Below, piece after piece: positions 4,229 through 52,107 of a stretch of DNA of 64,000 nucleotides (position 1 is the first letter of the stretch; every line of letters begins with the position of its first letter). The notes beneath the pieces were generated by a model. The model searched no databases. It was given only the letters and a program-made list of their open reading frames with translations, and was not told the DNA's origin. The translations under genes were made by a program, and so were the position numbers. The stretch is taken from the NCBI GenBank assembly GCA_022573285.1, contig JACZUF010000013.1, forward strand, positions 1-64,000, read 5' to 3'. Origin of the DNA: Chloroflexota bacterium. GTDB taxonomy: Bacteria; Chloroflexota; Dehalococcoidia; Lucifugimonadales; UBA3495.

Positions 4229-4304
4229 TGGTGGAGCTGCGGGGACTTGAACCCCGTACCTCTTCAATGCCATTGAAGCGCTCTCCCAGATGAGCTACAG
4301 CCCC
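4229..4304 (-). tRNA. tRNA-Ala (anticodon GGC), CCA encoded
   Basis: Reverse complement ggggctgtagctcatctgggagagcgcttcaatggcattgaagaggtacggggttcaagtccccgcagctccacca folds into a full cloverleaf; anticodon loop ATGGCAT. Confidence 0.95.
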
Positions 4305-4632
4305 ACTGTTGAAGTATACCGGCCTGCTATTGGCTGCGGCCCCGATTTATTGGGAGAACCCGGTGCCTTCCCGATGTCAATCGGGACGCTCTCCCAGATG
4401 AGCTACAGCCCCACTGTTGAAGTATACCGGCCTGCTAATCGGCTGCCGCCCCGATCTATTGGGAGAACCCGGTGCCTTCCCGATGTCAATCGGGACGCTC
4501 TCCCAGATGAGCTACAGCCCCACTGTTGAAGTATACCGGCCTGCTAATCGGCTGCCGCCCCGATTTATCGGGAGAACCCGGTGCCTTCCCGATGTCAATC
4601 GGGACGCTCTCCCAGATGAGCTACAGCCCCAC
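4281..4632. repeat. Tandem repeat, ~109-bp unit, three units plus a 26-nt partial copy; unit contains the 5' half of tRNA-Ala and two CCCGAT/ATCGGG palindromes
   Basis: 'ctctcccagatgagctacagcccc' recurs at 4281, 4389, 4498 and 4607 (spacing 108/109/109) with nearly identical intervening sequence. Confidence 0.95.
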
Positions 4633-4725
4633 GGAAGCGAGAAGCGAGAAGCGATCAGCTATCAGCTTTCAGGCTGACTGACTGCCGCATATCAGGATAG
4701 CAAAACCGACTTCCAGGTACAATGT

Positions 4726-8649: not shown

Positions 8650-10068
8650 GTGAAGAAAGACTACGACCTGCTGATCATTGGCGGGGGCTCCGCAGGGCTG
8701 ACCGCCGCCCGGTTCGCCCGCCGGATGGACCTATCGGTGGCGTTGGTGGAGAAGGCCCGCCTGGGCGGCGACTGCACCTGGACCGGGTGCGTGCCCAGCA
8801 AGACCCTGCTGAGGGCCGCCAAATCTATCCAGACCATCAAAGATGCCGCCCGTTTCGGGATAACCTCGACCGAGCCGGTAATCGACTTCAAATCGGTGAT
8901 GGGCCGGGTTAGCTCCGTGGTGCAGAAAATATTCGAGAGCGAATCGCCGGATACCCTGCAAGCCGAAGGCGTGGACGTGATCCAAGGCACGGCCCAGTTC
9001 ATCGACCGGCGGACGGTATCGGTGGACGGCAGAGGGATCAGCGCCCGCCGTTTTCTGGTCTGCACCGGGGCCCGGCCGGTGACGCCGCCCATCGAGGGCC
9101 TGGCCGAGGCCGGTTTCCTGACCTACGAGACGGTCTGGGACCTGGAAGAGCTGCCGCCGAGGTTGGCCGTCATCGGCGGCGGGCCCATCGGATGCGAACT
9201 GGCCCAGGCATTCTGCCGTTTGGGTTCATCGGTGACCCTACTGGAGGCCGCCGGCCGCATCATGCTGCAGGATGAGCCGGAAGCCGCAGATGTGGTCGCC
9301 CAGCGCCTGACTGAAGATGGGGTAGACCTGAGGGTTGACGCGGCTCTGGAACGGGTGGAAAAGACCTCGGTTGGCGTGCGGTTAATGCTAGGAGGTGGCG
9401 CTCAGGTGGAGGCCGACGCGGTGTTGGTCGCCGTCGGCCGGCGGCCCCAGGTGGACGGGCTGGGTCTTGACGAGGCCAAGGTCGTCCACGGTCTTGGCGG
9501 TATAGAGGTCAATAAAAACCTCCGCACCAGCCAGGCGAACATCTACGCTGCCGGCGATTGCACCGGCGGCTACCAATTCACCCACTACGCCGGTTACCAG
9601 GGGTTCATGGCGGTGCGGAACGCGTTCTTGCCCTTCAACAAAAAATCGGTGTTGGAGCATGTGCCCTGGGCCACGTTCACCGACCCGGAGGTGGCCCACG
9701 CCGGGCTGACCGAGGCTCTGGCCAGAGAGCGCCACGGGGGGAAGGTACTGGCCGCCACCTGGCCCATGGACCAGACCGACCGGTGGCTGACGGAGGGAGA
9801 CTCGCCGGGCTTCTTGAAGCTGGTTTACCTGCCCAACGGCAAGCTGTTGGGGGTGACGGTCGTGGCCTCGCGCGCCGGGGAGATGGTCCAAGAGTGGGCC
9901 CTGGCCCTGGACCGGGGCCTGAAGCTCTCCCACATGGCCGAGTCTCTCCACATCTACCCCACCTTTTCCCTGGCCTCCCAACAACTGGCGTCCAAACTGA
10001 GAGTGGACCAACTGCTGAGCGGCACGGTGGGCAAGATCGTGCGCAAATACGCCCGAATTGTGGGGTAG
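8650..10068 (+). CDS. FAD-dependent pyridine nucleotide-disulfide oxidoreductase (MerA/Lpd-like)
   Basis: GGGSAGLTAARFARR, redox motif GGDCTWTGCVPSKTLL, IGGGPIGCELAQAF, YAAGDCTGGYQFTHYAG. Confidence 0.92.
   Translation: MKKDYDLLIIGGGSAGLTAARFARRMDLSVALVEKARLGGDCTWTGCVPSKTLLRAAKSIQTIKDAARFGITSTEPVIDFKSVMGRVSSVVQKIFESESPDTLQAEGVDVIQGTAQFIDRRTVSVDGRGISARRFLVCTGARPVTPPIEGLAEAGFLTYETVWDLEELPPRLAVIGGGPIGCELAQAFCRLGSSVTLLEAAGRIMLQDEPEAADVVAQRLTEDGVDLRVDAALERVEKTSVGVRLMLGGGAQVEADAVLVAVGRRPQVDGLGLDEAKVVHGLGGIEVNKNLRTSQANIYAAGDCTGGYQFTHYAGYQGFMAVRNAFLPFNKKSVLEHVPWATFTDPEVAHAGLTEALARERHGGKVLAATWPMDQTDRWLTEGDSPGFLKLVYLPNGKLLGVTVVASRAGEMVQEWALALDRGLKLSHMAESLHIYPTFSLASQQLASKLRVDQLLSGTVGKIVRKYARIVG
9972..10055. 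repeat. 84-bp direct repeat, copy A (3' end of the disulfide oxidoreductase gene)
   Basis: Identical to 12956-13039 by eye; weaker similarity continues to ~10085. Confidence 0.95.
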
Positions 10069-10159
10069 GGCGGCTCGCCGCGTTATAGAACTGCGGTGAG
10101 ATCGCTATTTCTTAATCAGTGCCTTCATAAACCGCGATTTCCCTCATCCGGTGTTCCGA

Positions 10160-11431
10160 TTATTTGCTCGCCAGTGTAGGAATCTCTATGGCCGAGAGAC
10201 TTAAAAGGAATGAATCTAAGGGGGGGAAAAATTCGATTTGAAGAATAAAAATGTCTAGGCAAAGCGAGCCTTCGTAACCTGTAATTGCATCTTTTTGGTC
10301 TTTCAAGATTGCCAAGATTCCTTCGCAAGTGAGTACCATGCCATCGGCTGTCCGGACATCTTGACGAAGTTCAAAAATCCAAGCTAACTTAAGGCCAGGT
10401 AGCGGACCAGGCGGACCGAATTTCTCCAAGGCCAGGTCGGCGGACACATCTCCGTTTTCCTCCACCGAAATCAAATGCCTATGCCCCGAATCATGTTCTG
10501 GCATCGGCGGAGATGTTGGCTCAACAGTTGGCGCCGGCGGAGATGGTGACCCAACAGTTGGCGCCGGCGGAGATGTTGACCCAACAGTTGGCGTTCGCGT
10601 AGCTCTTATCGCTGGAGTCGATGTGGGCGGTGTTTCCGTTTCCTTTGTATCAGCCCCGTCCGTGGTATCGAACGACTTTTTTAATTCCTCGAACTCTCTG
10701 ACTTCTTCCGCCGTGAAGGTTGCGGGAGTTGGCGGCAGAATCGTCCGTTCTGTCACATCTACCAATACCTCTGTGTGTTCGCCAATCAAAATCGGTTCTG
10801 ATCCATACTCATCCCGAGGCGTGAGTAGGATGTGACCGCTAAAGACGGCGATTCTCGCCTTCTTATCGGCGCGAAGTACGACTCGTACCGTCGTACCCTC
10901 CGTCTCAATAAAGCCGACACCATCTATGTCGATGATTATTCCTTGGGTAGTCTTGCAATTGAATGCGCTGTCCTTATCCGAGCTCAATACTCTGAGAATC
11001 ACGTTTGGGATTTCGGAGATCGGACGTGTGAGACCAATGGCATTTGGCTTGCCGTTGCATCGCGCTTGCGCCACAAACATACCCTTGGCCTCGGAGAACC
11101 GCGCGAAAGAAATAATGAACGTGCCTGCCTGGCTGGCATTTATAGTCGTTTTTGTGCTGATCGGATTGACTTGATCAAGCGTCATACCCTCGGTATCCAG
11201 GTCAACTGCTGGACCTGAAGAAAGGGGGGTAACATTCACATCGGGTGTGAATTCTATGATTATGTCGTTAAAGCCCGAAGTGGGGCCGGCTGTGGGTGGG
11301 GCCTGACCATCGCAACCCACGACGAGAAATGTGGCAACGATTGCTATTATTAACAGAACCACTCTATGCACACGCCGAAGCAATCTCACCTTATCCTCCG
11401 ACCGAAGTTCGAATGTGACGATTTCAATCAC
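10160..11431 (-). CDS. Putative lipoprotein with FecR-like region and Pro/Thr-rich linker
   Basis: N-terminal TM with lipobox LVVGC; beta-rich region (RVVLRADKKARIAVFSGHILLTP); PTVGSTSPPAPTVGSPSPPAPTVEPTSPP linker. Confidence 0.6.
   Translation of the reverse strand: MIEIVTFELRSEDKVRLLRRVHRVVLLIIAIVATFLVVGCDGQAPPTAGPTSGFNDIIIEFTPDVNVTPLSSGPAVDLDTEGMTLDQVNPISTKTTINASQAGTFIISFARFSEAKGMFVAQARCNGKPNAIGLTRPISEIPNVILRVLSSDKDSAFNCKTTQGIIIDIDGVGFIETEGTTVRVVLRADKKARIAVFSGHILLTPRDEYGSEPILIGEHTEVLVDVTERTILPPTPATFTAEEVREFEELKKSFDTTDGADTKETETPPTSTPAIRATRTPTVGSTSPPAPTVGSPSPPAPTVEPTSPPMPEHDSGHRHLISVEENGDVSADLALEKFGPPGPLPGLKLAWIFELRQDVRTADGMVLTCEGILAILKDQKDAITGYEGSLCLDIFILQIEFFPPLDSFLLSLSAIEIPTLASK
10505..10595. 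repeat. 30-bp tandem repeat, 3 copies, within the lipoprotein linker
   Basis: 'ggcgccggcggagatgttgacccaacagtt' with period 30. Confidence 0.9.
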
Positions 11432-12603
11432 CGTGCCCCAAACGGGCGTTCCTTAAATATGAAACTGATTAAACTCGCCAACGCCGGAAGAACCGAACTG
11501 AACAGACCCAATAGAGCCGCGCCTAAAGCGGTGACAAACGTGCGGAAGATAGGGCTCGCTTCTATTTTTCTGGGGAGTAGTTCAGATTCCCCTAGTTTGA
11601 CACTGGTGGCCACAGCCGCGCTTCCGAGGCTGATCTTTCCATCGTTTATCTCCACTCCGATTGACCTATCCTCAAGCAACATCAACTCAAGAGTATCGTT
11701 ACTGACCAAAGGGACTCTCGTTTGACCGATGTCGAAGAATCCCTCGGTCCCGCTCAGGACCAGCTTGGATACTCTGGCGTCGAAGCGAATCCCCGGAGAT
11801 TCGGACACAGTGTGGGCGTCGAAAGAACTACTCACCAGTGAATCCCCTGGAACAGAACTCGGAACCGGGCTTTGGGGAAGTTTCAAAGTTCTGCTCTCCT
11901 TGCCCATTAGCACTGATGTAGTGCCGTCAGCGTCAGTTATCGCCACCTTTCGATCTAGCTCTTCAAGGGCCTCGATTCTTACTTTCGCTTGGCTGCTCTG
12001 ATCGGCGACAGTTTGTACGTTGATCCTGGTAATGCCCGGGTCATTCTTCGATGGCCTCCGGAGTGTTACCTGCTGTACCTCAGTGGCAGATACCAAAACT
12101 GATATAGGAGCGGCCCGGTTCTCATTTTCGGCACTGTCCTCCCCAGATATTTCGAAGTCCAACCTATCTATGCTGCCCTCATCTATGTTGCTCTCCGACT
12201 CTTGGAAAGCGTCTCCATCCAATGGCAGAATAAGCTCAACCGGTAGTAGCAAGCCCTGCAGACGGGAAAAATGTTCAACCCCATTCAAAAGCAACAAAAA
12301 AGACTCCTGCTGAGAAGAAGGCGATTTGTCCTTGGAAAGAACCGCTGTTAATTTGGTGTCCACGAGGAAACGTGCATTCAGGACCACAGTTTGAGCGGGC
12401 CTGTGGGTCCAACCCCAAGTAAACAGCCCTACTAATATCATCAATGCGATCATGTACCCGGCGCCGGTGATCCGTCTTCTTCGGTCCTGGTCACGATCCT
12501 GTTCAATGGCAGCCCGTAAAATGCCCTTGGCGACGGCTCCGGAGATACCCTCTAGATCCTGATTTGATAAGGCGTCGGTTTGAAGATCAGTGGAATCGGT
12601 CAT
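11428..12603 (-). CDS. Hypothetical membrane protein (TM segments near N and C termini)
   Basis: GYMIALMILVGLFTWGW near N terminus, FVTALGAALLGLFSSVLPALASLISFIF near C terminus; 4-bp ATGA overlap with the downstream lipoprotein gene. Confidence 0.7.
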   Translation of the reverse strand: MTDSTDLQTDALSNQDLEGISGAVAKGILRAAIEQDRDQDRRRRITGAGYMIALMILVGLFTWGWTHRPAQTVVLNARFLVDTKLTAVLSKDKSPSSQQESFLLLLNGVEHFSRLQGLLLPVELILPLDGDAFQESESNIDEGSIDRLDFEISGEDSAENENRAAPISVLVSATEVQQVTLRRPSKNDPGITRINVQTVADQSSQAKVRIEALEELDRKVAITDADGTTSVLMGKESRTLKLPQSPVPSSVPGDSLVSSSFDAHTVSESPGIRFDARVSKLVLSGTEGFFDIGQTRVPLVSNDTLELMLLEDRSIGVEINDGKISLGSAAVATSVKLGESELLPRKIEASPIFRTFVTALGAALLGLFSSVLPALASLISFIFKERPFGAR

Positions 12604-12955
12604 CGCATGAACATTTGTTGATGCTGGGCAATTTCATTTTTGTCCAATGGTCGGACATGAGATTGAACCGTGGGTCCAGAGGTTGGCCGATGAGGATTAG
12701 CGGACAAGAACAAGGATCGACGGACGAACTTCGCCACCAAAGTAACCAACCAATTCGTGCAAATACTATACCAAAAGATTTAGCTGCCGCGACCGAATCG
12801 GAAACCGACAAACCATAATGTAAGACGAAACCGCCACGTTAAAAAATTGATGGCTCAATCGATGATATGTAGCATGGTCCCAGGCTCATCGGAACAGCCC
12901 GGAGTTACACCGGAGCAGCGCCGCGACCTAGCGCGGGAAATGTTTGATGAGATCA

Positions 12956-13039
12956 GGCCTCCCAACAACTGGCGTCCAAACTGAGAGTGGACCAACTGCT
13001 GAGCGGCACGGTGGGCAAGATCGTGCGCAAATACGCCCG
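12956..13039. repeat. 84-bp direct repeat, copy B (orphan 3' end of the disulfide oxidoreductase)
   Basis: Same sequence as 9972-10055; encodes ...QQLASKLRVDQLLSGTVGKIVRKYARMVG* without the rest of the gene. Confidence 0.95.
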
Positions 13040-13089
13040 CATGGTCGGCTAGGGAGGCGGCTCGCCGCGTTTTCGTGGGGCGATTCCCC

Positions 13090-13293: not shown

Positions 13294-14244
13294 CTAGAAG
13301 ATGGCTATGGGGTTTACGGGGGAGCCGGTGGTGTTGTGCAGGCGGAGCGGGCCGATGGAAATCATGAACTCCCAGCGGTTGCGCTCTTTGCAGGCTTGGG
13401 CCACCCCTTCCAGGTCGGCGTTATCCAGGATCCAGATGCCCATGGCCGTGATACTCACTTGGTGGATGGGACTGGGCACCTTCTCGTACTGGGGCGGGTT
13501 AACGTCGTTGCCGGTGTCCGAGCCCATCATGGCGATGCCCCGCTCGTAGAACAGGGGCAGCACCGACGCCTGACAGGCGGTGGAGCCCTTGGACCGTTCC
13601 ACGGGTCCCTCGACGTTGCGGCGGTGCAACTGCCCGGTGCGGATTAGCAGCACGTCGCCCTCCTCCACCTTGAACCCGCAGCGCTCCTCGGCGGCCAGGA
13701 TGTCGTCGATCATGACGCCTTCGCCCCGTTCCACCCAGTCGATGCCCCGGATCATGGGCACGTCGACCAATACCGCCCGGGAGATGATGCCCTCCTTGGC
13801 CTCCTCCACCGAGCCGAAGGTTGCGCCCAGACTGGTGGACACCAAGTGGGCCGGCTTGCCGTTGTAGGTCTTCCCGTTCCAGAAGAAATGGGAGAGGGCG
13901 TCGACGTGGGTCACGGTGGTGCCGTGGAAGATCATGCCGAAGTAGTCGGTGGCGGCCGGGAAGGCGCGGGAGCTCACCTTGTCTCCGCTGGCCCAGCCCT
14001 CGCCGCTCTCCACCATGAAGTGGACCGGTGGGCTTGGCGCGTCCACGGTCGGCTCGAAGCTGATGGTCCGTGACATGGTGATGCGGACCCCATCCTGCAC
14101 CGTGGCGATGGCCTGCTTGACCTTGGCGGGAGTGATGAAATTAGGCGCGCCCAACTCGTCGTCTTCGCCCCAACGTCCCCAATTGGAGAACTTGTCGAAA
14201 TAGCTGAGTACCTCTTCTTCACTGGGTATATTCGCCTGTGGCAT
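13294..14244 (-). CDS. Cyclase family protein (kynurenine formamidase-like)
   Basis: Start MPQANIPSEEE; HGTTVTHVDALSHFFWNGKTYNG metal-binding HxxxHxDxxxH-like motif; EEGDVLLIRTG. Confidence 0.85.
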   Translation of the reverse strand: MPQANIPSEEEVLSYFDKFSNWGRWGEDDELGAPNFITPAKVKQAIATVQDGVRITMSRTISFEPTVDAPSPPVHFMVESGEGWASGDKVSSRAFPAATDYFGMIFHGTTVTHVDALSHFFWNGKTYNGKPAHLVSTSLGATFGSVEEAKEGIISRAVLVDVPMIRGIDWVERGEGVMIDDILAAEERCGFKVEEGDVLLIRTGQLHRRNVEGPVERSKGSTACQASVLPLFYERGIAMMGSDTGNDVNPPQYEKVPSPIHQVSITAMGIWILDNADLEGVAQACKERNRWEFMISIGPLRLHNTTGSPVNPIAIF

Positions 14245-14268
14245 CTTCTTCCTCCTAAATGCTGATCG

Positions 14269-14285
14269 CCCCGATAGAATCGGGG
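14269..14285. repeat. Dispersed palindrome CCCCGAT-AGA-ATCGGGG
   Basis: Same pattern as palindromes at 3931-3947, in the 4.3-4.6 kb repeats, and at 59246-59262. Confidence 0.7.
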
Positions 14286-14299
14286 CTGATAGCCGACAG

Positions 14300-15655
14300 C
14301 TAATTCTCGACTGGGGGAACCAGCCGGACGTCGATGACCCTCTCGCACCACCGGGCGGCCGCCAAGAGCCGGGCCTCTTCGAAGGGCGATGCAATCAACT
14401 GGATACCCAGGGGCAACCCTGATTCCGCAAGACCGATGGGCAGGGTGATTGTCGGCAGTCCGCACGAGGTCCACGGCCCCTGGAATCTGGTGTCGCCGGT
14501 GTTGGTCAGGTCGGCCAGCGGAGCGGTTGGGGTGGAGGGCGTGAGCAGAACGTCGGCCTTCTCCGCCAGCAACCTCATGTCGGCAGAGAACCGGAGCCTC
14601 CTTTCCAGGGCCTTCGAATAGGTCGTGGCGTCGGTCTCCAGGCCCTGCCGCAGCATCTCTCGCAGCTTAGGCCGGTAGTCCTGGGCCTGCTTCTCGTACA
14701 TGGGTTTGTGGAAGGCGGCGGCCTCGGCGCCCATGATCGTCATCTGGTCCTGGATGGCGGTCCCGAAGCTCTCCGGAAGGGTCAACTCCACCACTGACGC
14801 CCCGGCCGACGCAAGCTGCTCCACCACGGCTCTGGTCCGCCGCTGGGTTTCCTGGTCGGCTTCTTCCATGAAGAATGAAGTGATGAGTCCGATCCGTGGC
14901 GGCCCCGAAGACTCCAACCCCGATAGGTAGTCGCCGGCCGGCAAGCGCGAGGCCACTGGGTCTTGATCGTCGGGCCCGGCCATCACTTGCAGTAGGAGCG
15001 CGGCGTCTTCCACGGTGCGGCCCATCCAGCCCACGGTGTCCAGGGACCAGCTTACGGGCACCACTCCGCGGCGGCTGACCCGTCCGTAGGTCGGCTTAAG
15101 GCCGACGATGCCGCTGTAAGACGCTGGCCGGAGCACCGAGCCTATGGTCTGGGAGCCCATGGCCACCGGGCACATCCGGGCGGCAACGGCCACTGCCGAG
15201 CCGCTGCTGGACCCGCCGGGCGTATGGGCCGGGTTCCAGGGGTTCTTGGTGTGGGATGGGTCCAGGCAGGCAAACTCGGTGGTGACGGTCTTGCCCAATA
15301 TGACCGCGCCGGCGTTTTGGAGCAGGCCGATGGTGGCCGCAGTCTCATCGGGAACGTAGTCCGCGTAGACCTTGGAGCCGGCCTTGGTGGGCACGCCGGC
15401 GATATTGTAGATGTCTTTTATGCCGATGGGCACGCCGTGGAGCGGCCCGGTCTCTACGCCGCTGTCCAGTTCTTCTTGACGTTGCTTGGCGTCGGCCAGA
15501 ACCGTCTCCCGGTCAACGCGGACCCAGGCTTCCAAACGGGGTTCCAGGGAGTCCATCCGCTCCAGAAGCGACTGCGCCACTTGCACTGGAGTGATGTTTC
15601 GATCGCGGATCTGGCGTGCCAGTTCCGCCGCCGATAGGTCATAGGGCTGGGGCAT
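14300..15655 (-). CDS. Amidase (amidase signature family)
   Basis: GVPIGIKDIYNIAGVPTKAGSK, GGSSSGSAVAVAARM, GSQTIGSVLRPASYSGIVGLKPTYGRVS. Confidence 0.92.
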   Translation of the reverse strand: MPQPYDLSAAELARQIRDRNITPVQVAQSLLERMDSLEPRLEAWVRVDRETVLADAKQRQEELDSGVETGPLHGVPIGIKDIYNIAGVPTKAGSKVYADYVPDETAATIGLLQNAGAVILGKTVTTEFACLDPSHTKNPWNPAHTPGGSSSGSAVAVAARMCPVAMGSQTIGSVLRPASYSGIVGLKPTYGRVSRRGVVPVSWSLDTVGWMGRTVEDAALLLQVMAGPDDQDPVASRLPAGDYLSGLESSGPPRIGLITSFFMEEADQETQRRTRAVVEQLASAGASVVELTLPESFGTAIQDQMTIMGAEAAAFHKPMYEKQAQDYRPKLREMLRQGLETDATTYSKALERRLRFSADMRLLAEKADVLLTPSTPTAPLADLTNTGDTRFQGPWTSCGLPTITLPIGLAESGLPLGIQLIASPFEEARLLAAARWCERVIDVRLVPPVEN

Positions 15656-50398: not shown

Positions 50399-51241
50399 AT
50401 GGTAGAAAACAGTCAAGGGTCGCAAGGACTCGAAGCGGGCCACCAGCCAGAGGCAACTCCGAAAGAAGGAAACAAGCAGTCATTGTTGCTTAAGCTCGCC
50501 GAACGGACCGTTCTCCAGGCCGAAGCCTTGGCGCAAGAGATTACTGACCATGCCAGGCAAGAGAGCGAAGCCGAGGGCGCCAAAATTCTAGCGGAATATA
50601 CGGAAAAAGCTAAATCTGAAGCTCAGCAGACGATCGAGTCCGCCCAACTCCGTAGCGAAACCCTCCTCAATGAGGCAGCTGCCGAAGCCCTCGCAGAAAG
50701 CGAAAAGACGTTGAAAAAGGCTCGATCAGAAAGCGAAAAGACGTTGAGCAAGGCTCGATCAGAAAGCGAAAAGATGGTGAGCAAGGCTCGATCAGAAAGT
50801 GAAGACGATTTGGACAAGGCCCAGACCGAAAGTCAGGAGATCCTGGGTAAGGCCCGGCAGGAAGCGCAGGCCATCATCAAAACTTCACAAACCCGCGCGG
50901 AAAGCACCGAATCCAATGCCAGGATGAAAGCAGAGTTCATGATCAGACAGACGACCCAGAACGTTGCCGAAGGAATCCGAAGCGCGGTCTTGGAAATTTG
51001 CAATAACCTGCTGCCGGCTGTGGAAGAATTCGGGAATGAAGCCCCGGGAGCACTCATCGCTAACCAGGCTGACGGAGCTTCGGCAATTGAGACGAAGATG
51101 CTGGAAAACGCGGCCTCCAGCGAGACAGCGGAGAGCTCTTCTTCGCCGGACTCGGTTCGCACCAATACCGGTACTCAATCTTCGGACAGGGCATCCGGCG
51201 GGAAGGCCAAGTCTTCTGCCAGTAAGAAGATTGCGGCGTGA
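50399..51241 (+). CDS. Coiled-coil protein with 11-residue (hendecad) repeats
   Basis: 280 aa; tandem ESEKTLKKARS/ESEKTLSKARS/ESEKMVSKARS/ESEDDLDKAQT/ESQEILGKARQ; matching 33-bp DNA repeats around 50700-50830. Confidence 0.7.
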   Translation: MVENSQGSQGLEAGHQPEATPKEGNKQSLLLKLAERTVLQAEALAQEITDHARQESEAEGAKILAEYTEKAKSEAQQTIESAQLRSETLLNEAAAEALAESEKTLKKARSESEKTLSKARSESEKMVSKARSESEDDLDKAQTESQEILGKARQEAQAIIKTSQTRAESTESNARMKAEFMIRQTTQNVAEGIRSAVLEICNNLLPAVEEFGNEAPGALIANQADGASAIETKMLENAASSETAESSSSPDSVRTNTGTQSSDRASGGKAKSSASKKIAA

Positions 51242-51435: not shown

Positions 51436-52107
51436 TTATCGGTCGCCACCGGCCACCGACCGCAGTCTGGCCGCCCTTGCGAAGTCCCTTTCAGATTCAG
51501 CGTATTTGCCGAGACGCTTCAACGTGACTCCCCGGTTGTTGTAGGCGTCTGAATAATCGGGGTTGAGGCGGATTGCTTCGTCGTAGTCCTTTAAGGAACG
51601 AGCATACTGGCACAACCTGGACAGGGTGTTTCCCCGGTTGATGTAGACCTCCGTATCTGTGGGGTCGAGACGGATGGCTTCGTCGTAGTCCTCGATGGCA
51701 CGCTCATGCTGACCTAGGTCGTGGTAGGCGGTCCCCCGGTTATTGTAGGCTGCGGAACATTCTGGGTTGAGGCGGACGGCCTCATCGTAGTCTTCGATGG
51801 CACGCTCATTTTGACCTAAGGCGTGGTAGGCGGTCCCCCGGTTGTTGTAGGCCGCGAAATCTCCAGGGTCGAGGCGGACGGCCTGATCGTAGTCCTCGAT
51901 GGCACGCTCTTGTTTACCTAGGGCGTGGTAGGCGTTCCCCCGGTTGTTGTAGGCCGCGGCATGCTTAGGGTTGAGGCGGACGGCCTCATCGTAGCCCTCT
52001 ATGGCATTCTCATGTTGACCTAGGGCGTAATAACCGATCCCGATCTGCCTTCGCAACTCGGCCAGTTCGTCCAATAGCTGCTTTTTCGTTTTTCTCTCGT
52101 CTTTCAT
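51436..52107 (-). CDS. TPR-repeat protein
   Basis: Consecutive 34-residue repeats AYNNRGTAYHALGQNERAIEDYDEAVRLNPECSA; ~102-bp tandem periodicity. Confidence 0.92.
   Translation of the reverse strand: MKDERKTKKQLLDELAELRRQIGIGYYALGQHENAIEGYDEAVRLNPKHAAAYNNRGNAYHALGKQERAIEDYDQAVRLDPGDFAAYNNRGTAYHALGQNERAIEDYDEAVRLNPECSAAYNNRGTAYHDLGQHERAIEDYDEAIRLDPTDTEVYINRGNTLSRLCQYARSLKDYDEAIRLNPDYSDAYNNRGVTLKRLGKYAESERDFARAARLRSVAGGDR

Follow-up and report, generated by a model that had tools for sequence, protein, structure and literature searches.

A 2.9-kb insertion at the 3' end of a bacterial oxidoreductase gene: a possible decayed integrative element with a relic of a large serine recombinase

Introduction

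The replacement of gene ends by integrative elements, and the decay of such elements, are already well known (PMC5704250). One described case is e14, found in icd of Escherichia coli, where the displaced 165-bp end of the gene (icdC) differs from its replacement by 12 nucleotides and the reading frame of icd is intact (PMC11148124). In Dehalococcoides, islands located at ssrA carry dsiB, which encodes a large serine recombinase and in every case overlaps the att repeat with its 3' end; dsiB is paired with dsiA, which encodes a small serine recombinase, and the repeat is 20 bp long (PMC3146451). The repeats of IMEs that employ serine recombinases are very short, and the elements termed CIMEs keep att-like flanking repeats and have lost the genes for integration and transfer (PMC5704250).

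Here, we describe a locus that shares features with e14, the ssrA islands, and CIMEs. It lies in a window of 64 kb, the whole stretch of DNA that was analyzed, and consists of an insert that separates two copies of the end of an oxidoreductase gene. The gene content hints at a Chloroflexota/Dehalococcoidia-like host. Its features are collected in Table 1.

Table 1. Features of the oxidoreductase locus, in window coordinates
Feature	Position	Strand	Remarks
Target gene, pyridine-nucleotide-disulphide oxidoreductase (MerA/Lpd-like), 472 aa	8650..10068	+	last five codons from the insert
Copy A (attL-like)	9972..10084	+	end of the gene with its stop codon plus 16 nt; same as copy B over 9972-10055, incoming allele over 10056-10084
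Insert	10085..12955		GC 0.51; missing from six congeners
Cargo gene 2, 423 aa	10160..11431	-	lipoprotein-like N terminus by eye; without known relatives
Cargo gene 1, 391 aa	11428..12603	-	hydrophobic segment near either end by eye; no known relatives
Relic, C-terminal part of a large serine recombinase	12835..12957	+	cut where copy B begins; strongly similar over 12874-12957
Copy B (attR-like)	12956..13071	+	orphan gene 3' end with the native last codons
Right neighbor, putative cyclase, native	13294..14394	-	Pfam Cyclase E 1.2e-13; directly after the oxidoreductase in congeners

Results

A repeated gene end on either side of the insert

The initial annotation of this DNA had reported a perfect direct repeat of 84 bp followed by a diverged yet recognizable continuation, and both are borne out. 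The repeat (9972-10055 and 12956-13039) can be extended without gaps to 103 nt at 95% identity or, if a single 3-nt indel is allowed, to a homologous unit of 113 bp (9972-10084) in one copy and 116 bp (12956-13071) in the other, and both copies of this unit close with GGCGGCTCGCCGCGTT, 3' of the stop codon. A search for the repeat elsewhere, which had been proposed as a check, found the unit twice in the 3.17-Mb genome, both times at this locus. Copy B had been described as an orphan 3' end, and no gene body is indeed present there. The window has just one other exact direct repeat of at least 24 bp with copies at least 300 bp apart, a 28-bp segment belonging to a tandem array of tRNA-Ala sequence, so a chance origin of the 84-bp repeat is excluded.

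A 27-mer from the repeat gave no match in viral contigs. The tail motif of copy A was considered as a dispersed repeat and rejected, since this genome has it only once. G045, also of the order, contains a match of 25/26 nt to this tail, including an exact 21-mer, inside a palindrome that sits upstream of another gene (L016, 1501-1526); this is either a chance match or a dispersed palindrome.

The site in related genomes

In all six congeners in which the gene was detected (L017-L022), the site is empty: a single oxidoreductase end is followed by a short intergenic stretch and then by the cyclase gene, and the 2.9-kb segment is absent. These six loci are collinear with the window across most of about 4.7-19 kb, the insert excepted. 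Five other congeners, in which there was no oxidoreductase orthologue at E 1e-60, stand outside this count. Because the congeners have an empty site and lack the insert genes, the segment is an insertion, specific to this genome, and not a decayed tandem duplication. The initial annotation had looked to relatives to decide between site-specific insertion into a gene terminus and a tandem duplication. The empty sites, each with its single gene end, establish the insertion, and a site-specific mechanism is a plausible reading of it; the tandem duplication is rejected, as a second oxidoreductase that ends where copy B lies is present in no relative.

The oxidoreductase end was also considered as a recurrent integration site. 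This was rejected: in 30 orthologous loci, the 1.5 kb downstream of the gene yielded no convincing repeat of the tail. One congener (G006; L017, G006:C53) has a different insert in the intergenic stretch between oxidoreductase and cyclase, 1.3 kb long, of low GC content, and without direct repeats, with ORFs that by eye are PadR-like and glyoxalase-like.

Native and incoming ends of the target gene

The product of the target gene matches Pyr_redox_2 (E 1.1e-66) and Pyr_redox_dim (E 1.7e-23) of Pfam and is 70-81% identical to congener proteins. The gene ends with CGA ATT GTG GGG TAG in copy A, and copy B has CGC ATG GTC GGC TAG. The four coding differences (10056, 10059, 10062, and 10065) all fall at third codon positions, three of them silent and the other changing M to I; the peptides first read from the two copies, KYARIVG for A and KYARMVG for B, were correct. 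Methionine is present at the position of copy B's ATG in five of the six relatives, copy B thus being of the relatives' type. Judged by these codons, copy B is the native gene end, displaced, and the end in copy A arrived with the insert, which both supports and resolves the initial suggestion that one of the ends had been brought in. Random decay would not confine all differences to third codon positions, and the copy A end is therefore a functional, diverged allele of foreign origin. The frame of the oxidoreductase end is restored by the element, and the native end is displaced, an outcome to be expected when DNA integrates into a gene end.

This emphasizes the likeness to e14: in both cases a protein gene has the element at its 3' end and adopts, in frame, the element's synonymously diverged end, and the native end is orphaned. 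However, e14, a prophage, possesses a putative integrase gene of its own, and its displaced segment is 165 bp long with 12 changes, whereas the locus described here amounts to 2.9 kb, with two genes without known relatives and no integrase.

Cargo genes

The GC content of the insert, 0.51, contrasts with the 0.65 of the oxidoreductase gene; its two genes have GC3 values of 0.50-0.55, as compared with 0.82-0.84 in neighboring genes. The two overlapping minus-strand genes noted at the outset are confirmed; they encode proteins of 423 and 391 aa, have a 4-nt overlap, and resemble a single operon. The N terminus of the 423-aa protein is seen by eye to contain a hydrophobic stretch closing in VVGC, and we tentatively infer an envelope role for the cargo proteins.

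For the 391-aa gene, there was no match among the other 249 genomes of the order, and for the 423-aa gene none in 59 relatives, apart from two marginal matches over short stretches near E 1e-3. Neither gene had a credible match in Pfam, PADLOC, or PHROGs, or any match in plasmids and viral contigs. Cargo gene 1 had no match in phages, and cargo gene 2 had a marginal match only in the PDB. Pattern-based searches of genome contigs found no relatives of either, and AlphaFold models of the two proteins, with pLDDT near 40, were too poor for use.

A relic of a large serine recombinase

On the plus strand, the insert's right edge codes for MVPGSSEQPGVTPEQRRDLAREMFDEIR before passing into copy B. In searches, this peptide matches the C-terminal part of recombinase genes of congeners, and the similarity stops at the boundary of the repeat. 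With the longest relative as the query, tblastn gave E 5e-5. A profile of the tails of this recombinase family detected the relic at E 1.4e-8 as the sole match in the six-frame window, and the family profile detected it at E 3.6e-6 against the whole genome. The family is one of large serine recombinases (Resolvase, PF00239, and Recombinase, PF07508). The initial annotation had recognized neither integrase nor transposase between the repeats. This holds for an intact gene, as the two ORFs of the insert have no recombinase or transfer matches, but not for the relic.

The relic is truncated at both ends and stops about 25-35 codons before the usual C terminus of the family. Members of the family occur, at E 1e-3, in about four places in the 3.17-Mb genome (contigs C61, C70, and C37 and this locus). 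Because such places are so few, a relic at this very border is unlikely to be accidental; because it stops 25-35 codons short, the junction may merely cut through dead DNA.

The succession of gene end, cargo, recombinase 3' end, and orphan gene end may be called similar, by analogy, to that of the Dehalococcoides ssrA islands. A gene 3'-end repeat lies at the border in both, large serine recombinase sequence leads into the repeat, and at one locus (L096) a relative comes after a small resolvase-type gene, which recalls DsiA. The likeness to DsiB is one of layout, and the relic abuts the repeat but is incomplete. The islands also differ in that their target is tmRNA, their repeat measures 20 bp, and their integration module comprises several genes; at the present locus the target is a protein gene, the repeat measures 84 bp, and of a recombinase there is only a relic. 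Integration at tmRNA, by which the ssrA islands are recognized, does not apply to this locus, where the target is an oxidoreductase gene.

C-terminal fragments of the same recombinase family are scattered through congeners (L088-L098) and the present genome (G000:C37, C61, and C70), often as tails only, and many of these tails then run into the dispersed sequence TCATCCTGAGCCTGTCGAAGG. A search for att sites by way of these other tails returned this downstream dispersed repeat and no clean element borders.

Discussion

We give roughly an even chance to the view that the locus is a small decayed integrative element at the oxidoreductase 3' end that still has both att copies but no longer a recombinase. 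In its circular form, such an element would have carried a copy of the oxidoreductase gene end beside a recombinase gene. Recombination between this copy and the chromosomal gene end would have inserted the element, with the host gene adopting the element's last codons (copy A) and its native end moving to the far side (copy B). The recombinase would have been lost afterwards, the scrap of a serine recombinase against copy B being its last trace. The insertion itself, the native status of copy B, the foreign allele in copy A, and the relic are established, and the action of a recombinase, the role of this particular family, and the circular intermediate are steps that we infer. This reading is favored because of the layout, which resembles that of the ssrA islands, and because the genome contains a second decayed element of similar size, described below. 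The locus has the att-like flanking repeats of a CIME and lacks integration and transfer genes; no parent ICE or IME and no helper element were found for it, and its likeness to CIMEs is one of retained anatomy. Against an integrative element stand the lack of an intact integrase, the truncation of the relic, the length of the 84-bp repeat, far greater than that of reported serine-recombinase repeats, and the finding of no other element at the gene end, over 1.5 kb downstream, in 30 orthologous loci. Moreover, identity over 84 bp followed by four differences within the next 15 nt requires either that the att core is conserved or that gene conversion took place afterwards.

This last feature is where homology-facilitated illegitimate recombination, a process documented in transformable bacteria (PMC6382021), has its appeal. 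Linear DNA of a related strain, comprising gene end, cargo, and relic, would have been taken up; on the left, a crossover would have taken place by homology in the gene end near 10055, and on the right, 2-3 nt of microhomology (GG or GGC) would have joined the incoming DNA to host sequence 84 bp upstream. The outcome would be a duplication of 84 bp of the host's own gene, with the relic as chance DNA at the break. The identity of the 84-bp copies, with all differences on one side of 10055, is directly explained in this way, and most simply, because both copies would be host sequence; truncation of the relic at both ends is likewise expected of a break in dead DNA. Since about 25-35 codons are missing from the relic at the C terminus typical of its family, illegitimate joining fits nearly as well as site-specific recombination. 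We consider it somewhat less likely than an integrative element. A donor with the cargo already behind the same gene is required and is seen in no relative, and natural transformation is not known here. The 2-3 nt overlap at the junction is no more than chance and does not discriminate, and a breakpoint within one of about four relics in 3.17 Mb would be improbable if the relic were irrelevant.

A Campbell-type single crossover of a plasmid-like circle that possessed, by chance, about 113 bp of the gene end would produce the same final anatomy as site-specific integration, namely two near-identical flanking copies. It is an improbable route, however, given that 113 bp is short for homologous recombination, that the circle's possession of exactly the gene end is left unexplained, and that the cargo has no plasmid match. 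The genome is a draft of 81 contigs with about 5% estimated contamination, and the joining of two strains or loci by the assembler has therefore to be considered; we judge it very unlikely, as both flanks are syntenic with relatives and the probable assembly k-mer, 127 as inferred from a contig with identical ends of that length (C59), exceeds 84 bp. Collapse at the repeat is likewise unlikely. A tandem duplication of the oxidoreductase, followed by decay and a later insertion between the copies, would account for two gene ends, but it is contradicted by the empty sites and by the lack of a second copy here in any relative, and copy B has no gene body and a recombinase relic directly against it. 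We find this account barely credible.

The locus by itself changes nothing in the known picture of integration. Its value is twofold. The end of a protein-coding gene has clearly been replaced, and the differences at third codon positions reveal the incoming allele; and a small cassette of relative-less genes is tied to relics of serine recombinases, which has until now been described for the tmRNA islands of Dehalococcoides. What most deserves the attention of specialists is that, in this lineage, small cargo cassettes and gene ends are linked with serine recombinase relics that consist of a tail only. To extend the decayed-element reading further, one family of large serine recombinases in the lineage might insert small cassettes at the ends of protein genes, with att overlapping the recombinase's own 3' end, and cassettes left with cargo and a recombinase tail alone might be mobilized in trans. 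This is a speculative and rather improbable proposal; if true, such mobilization would also account for the tail-only relics across congeners.

Other elements and repeats in the genome and window

Further gene-end repeats were sought in selected stretches of the genome. The second decayed element (L039, 7730-9543; G000:C72) has 1.74 kb between 51-bp repeats (7757 and 9493) of the 3' end of tRNA-Lys (CTT) and contains a truncated tyrosine integrase and small ORFs. Two full-length tyrosine recombinases, on contigs C67 and C38, were considered as element integrases and rejected, as by eye their sequence and context have the look of Xer-type housekeeping enzymes. Contig C59 (L038, 1-16727; G000:C59), with its identical 127-bp ends and two tyrosine recombinase genes, is probably a circular 16.6-kb element, which could be a plasmid or a virus.

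Within the window, after a tRNA-Ala (GGC) gene (4229-4304, minus strand), comes a tandem array in which a 109-bp unit is present about 3.3 times (the whole spanning 4229-4655). The unit carries a 28-nt piece of the tRNA (4279-4632), and similar partial tRNA repeats occur in several congeners. Two further tandem arrays, at 50661-50858 and 51523-52032, have units of 33 and 102 bp, respectively; as both lengths are multiples of three, these are possibly coding repeats.
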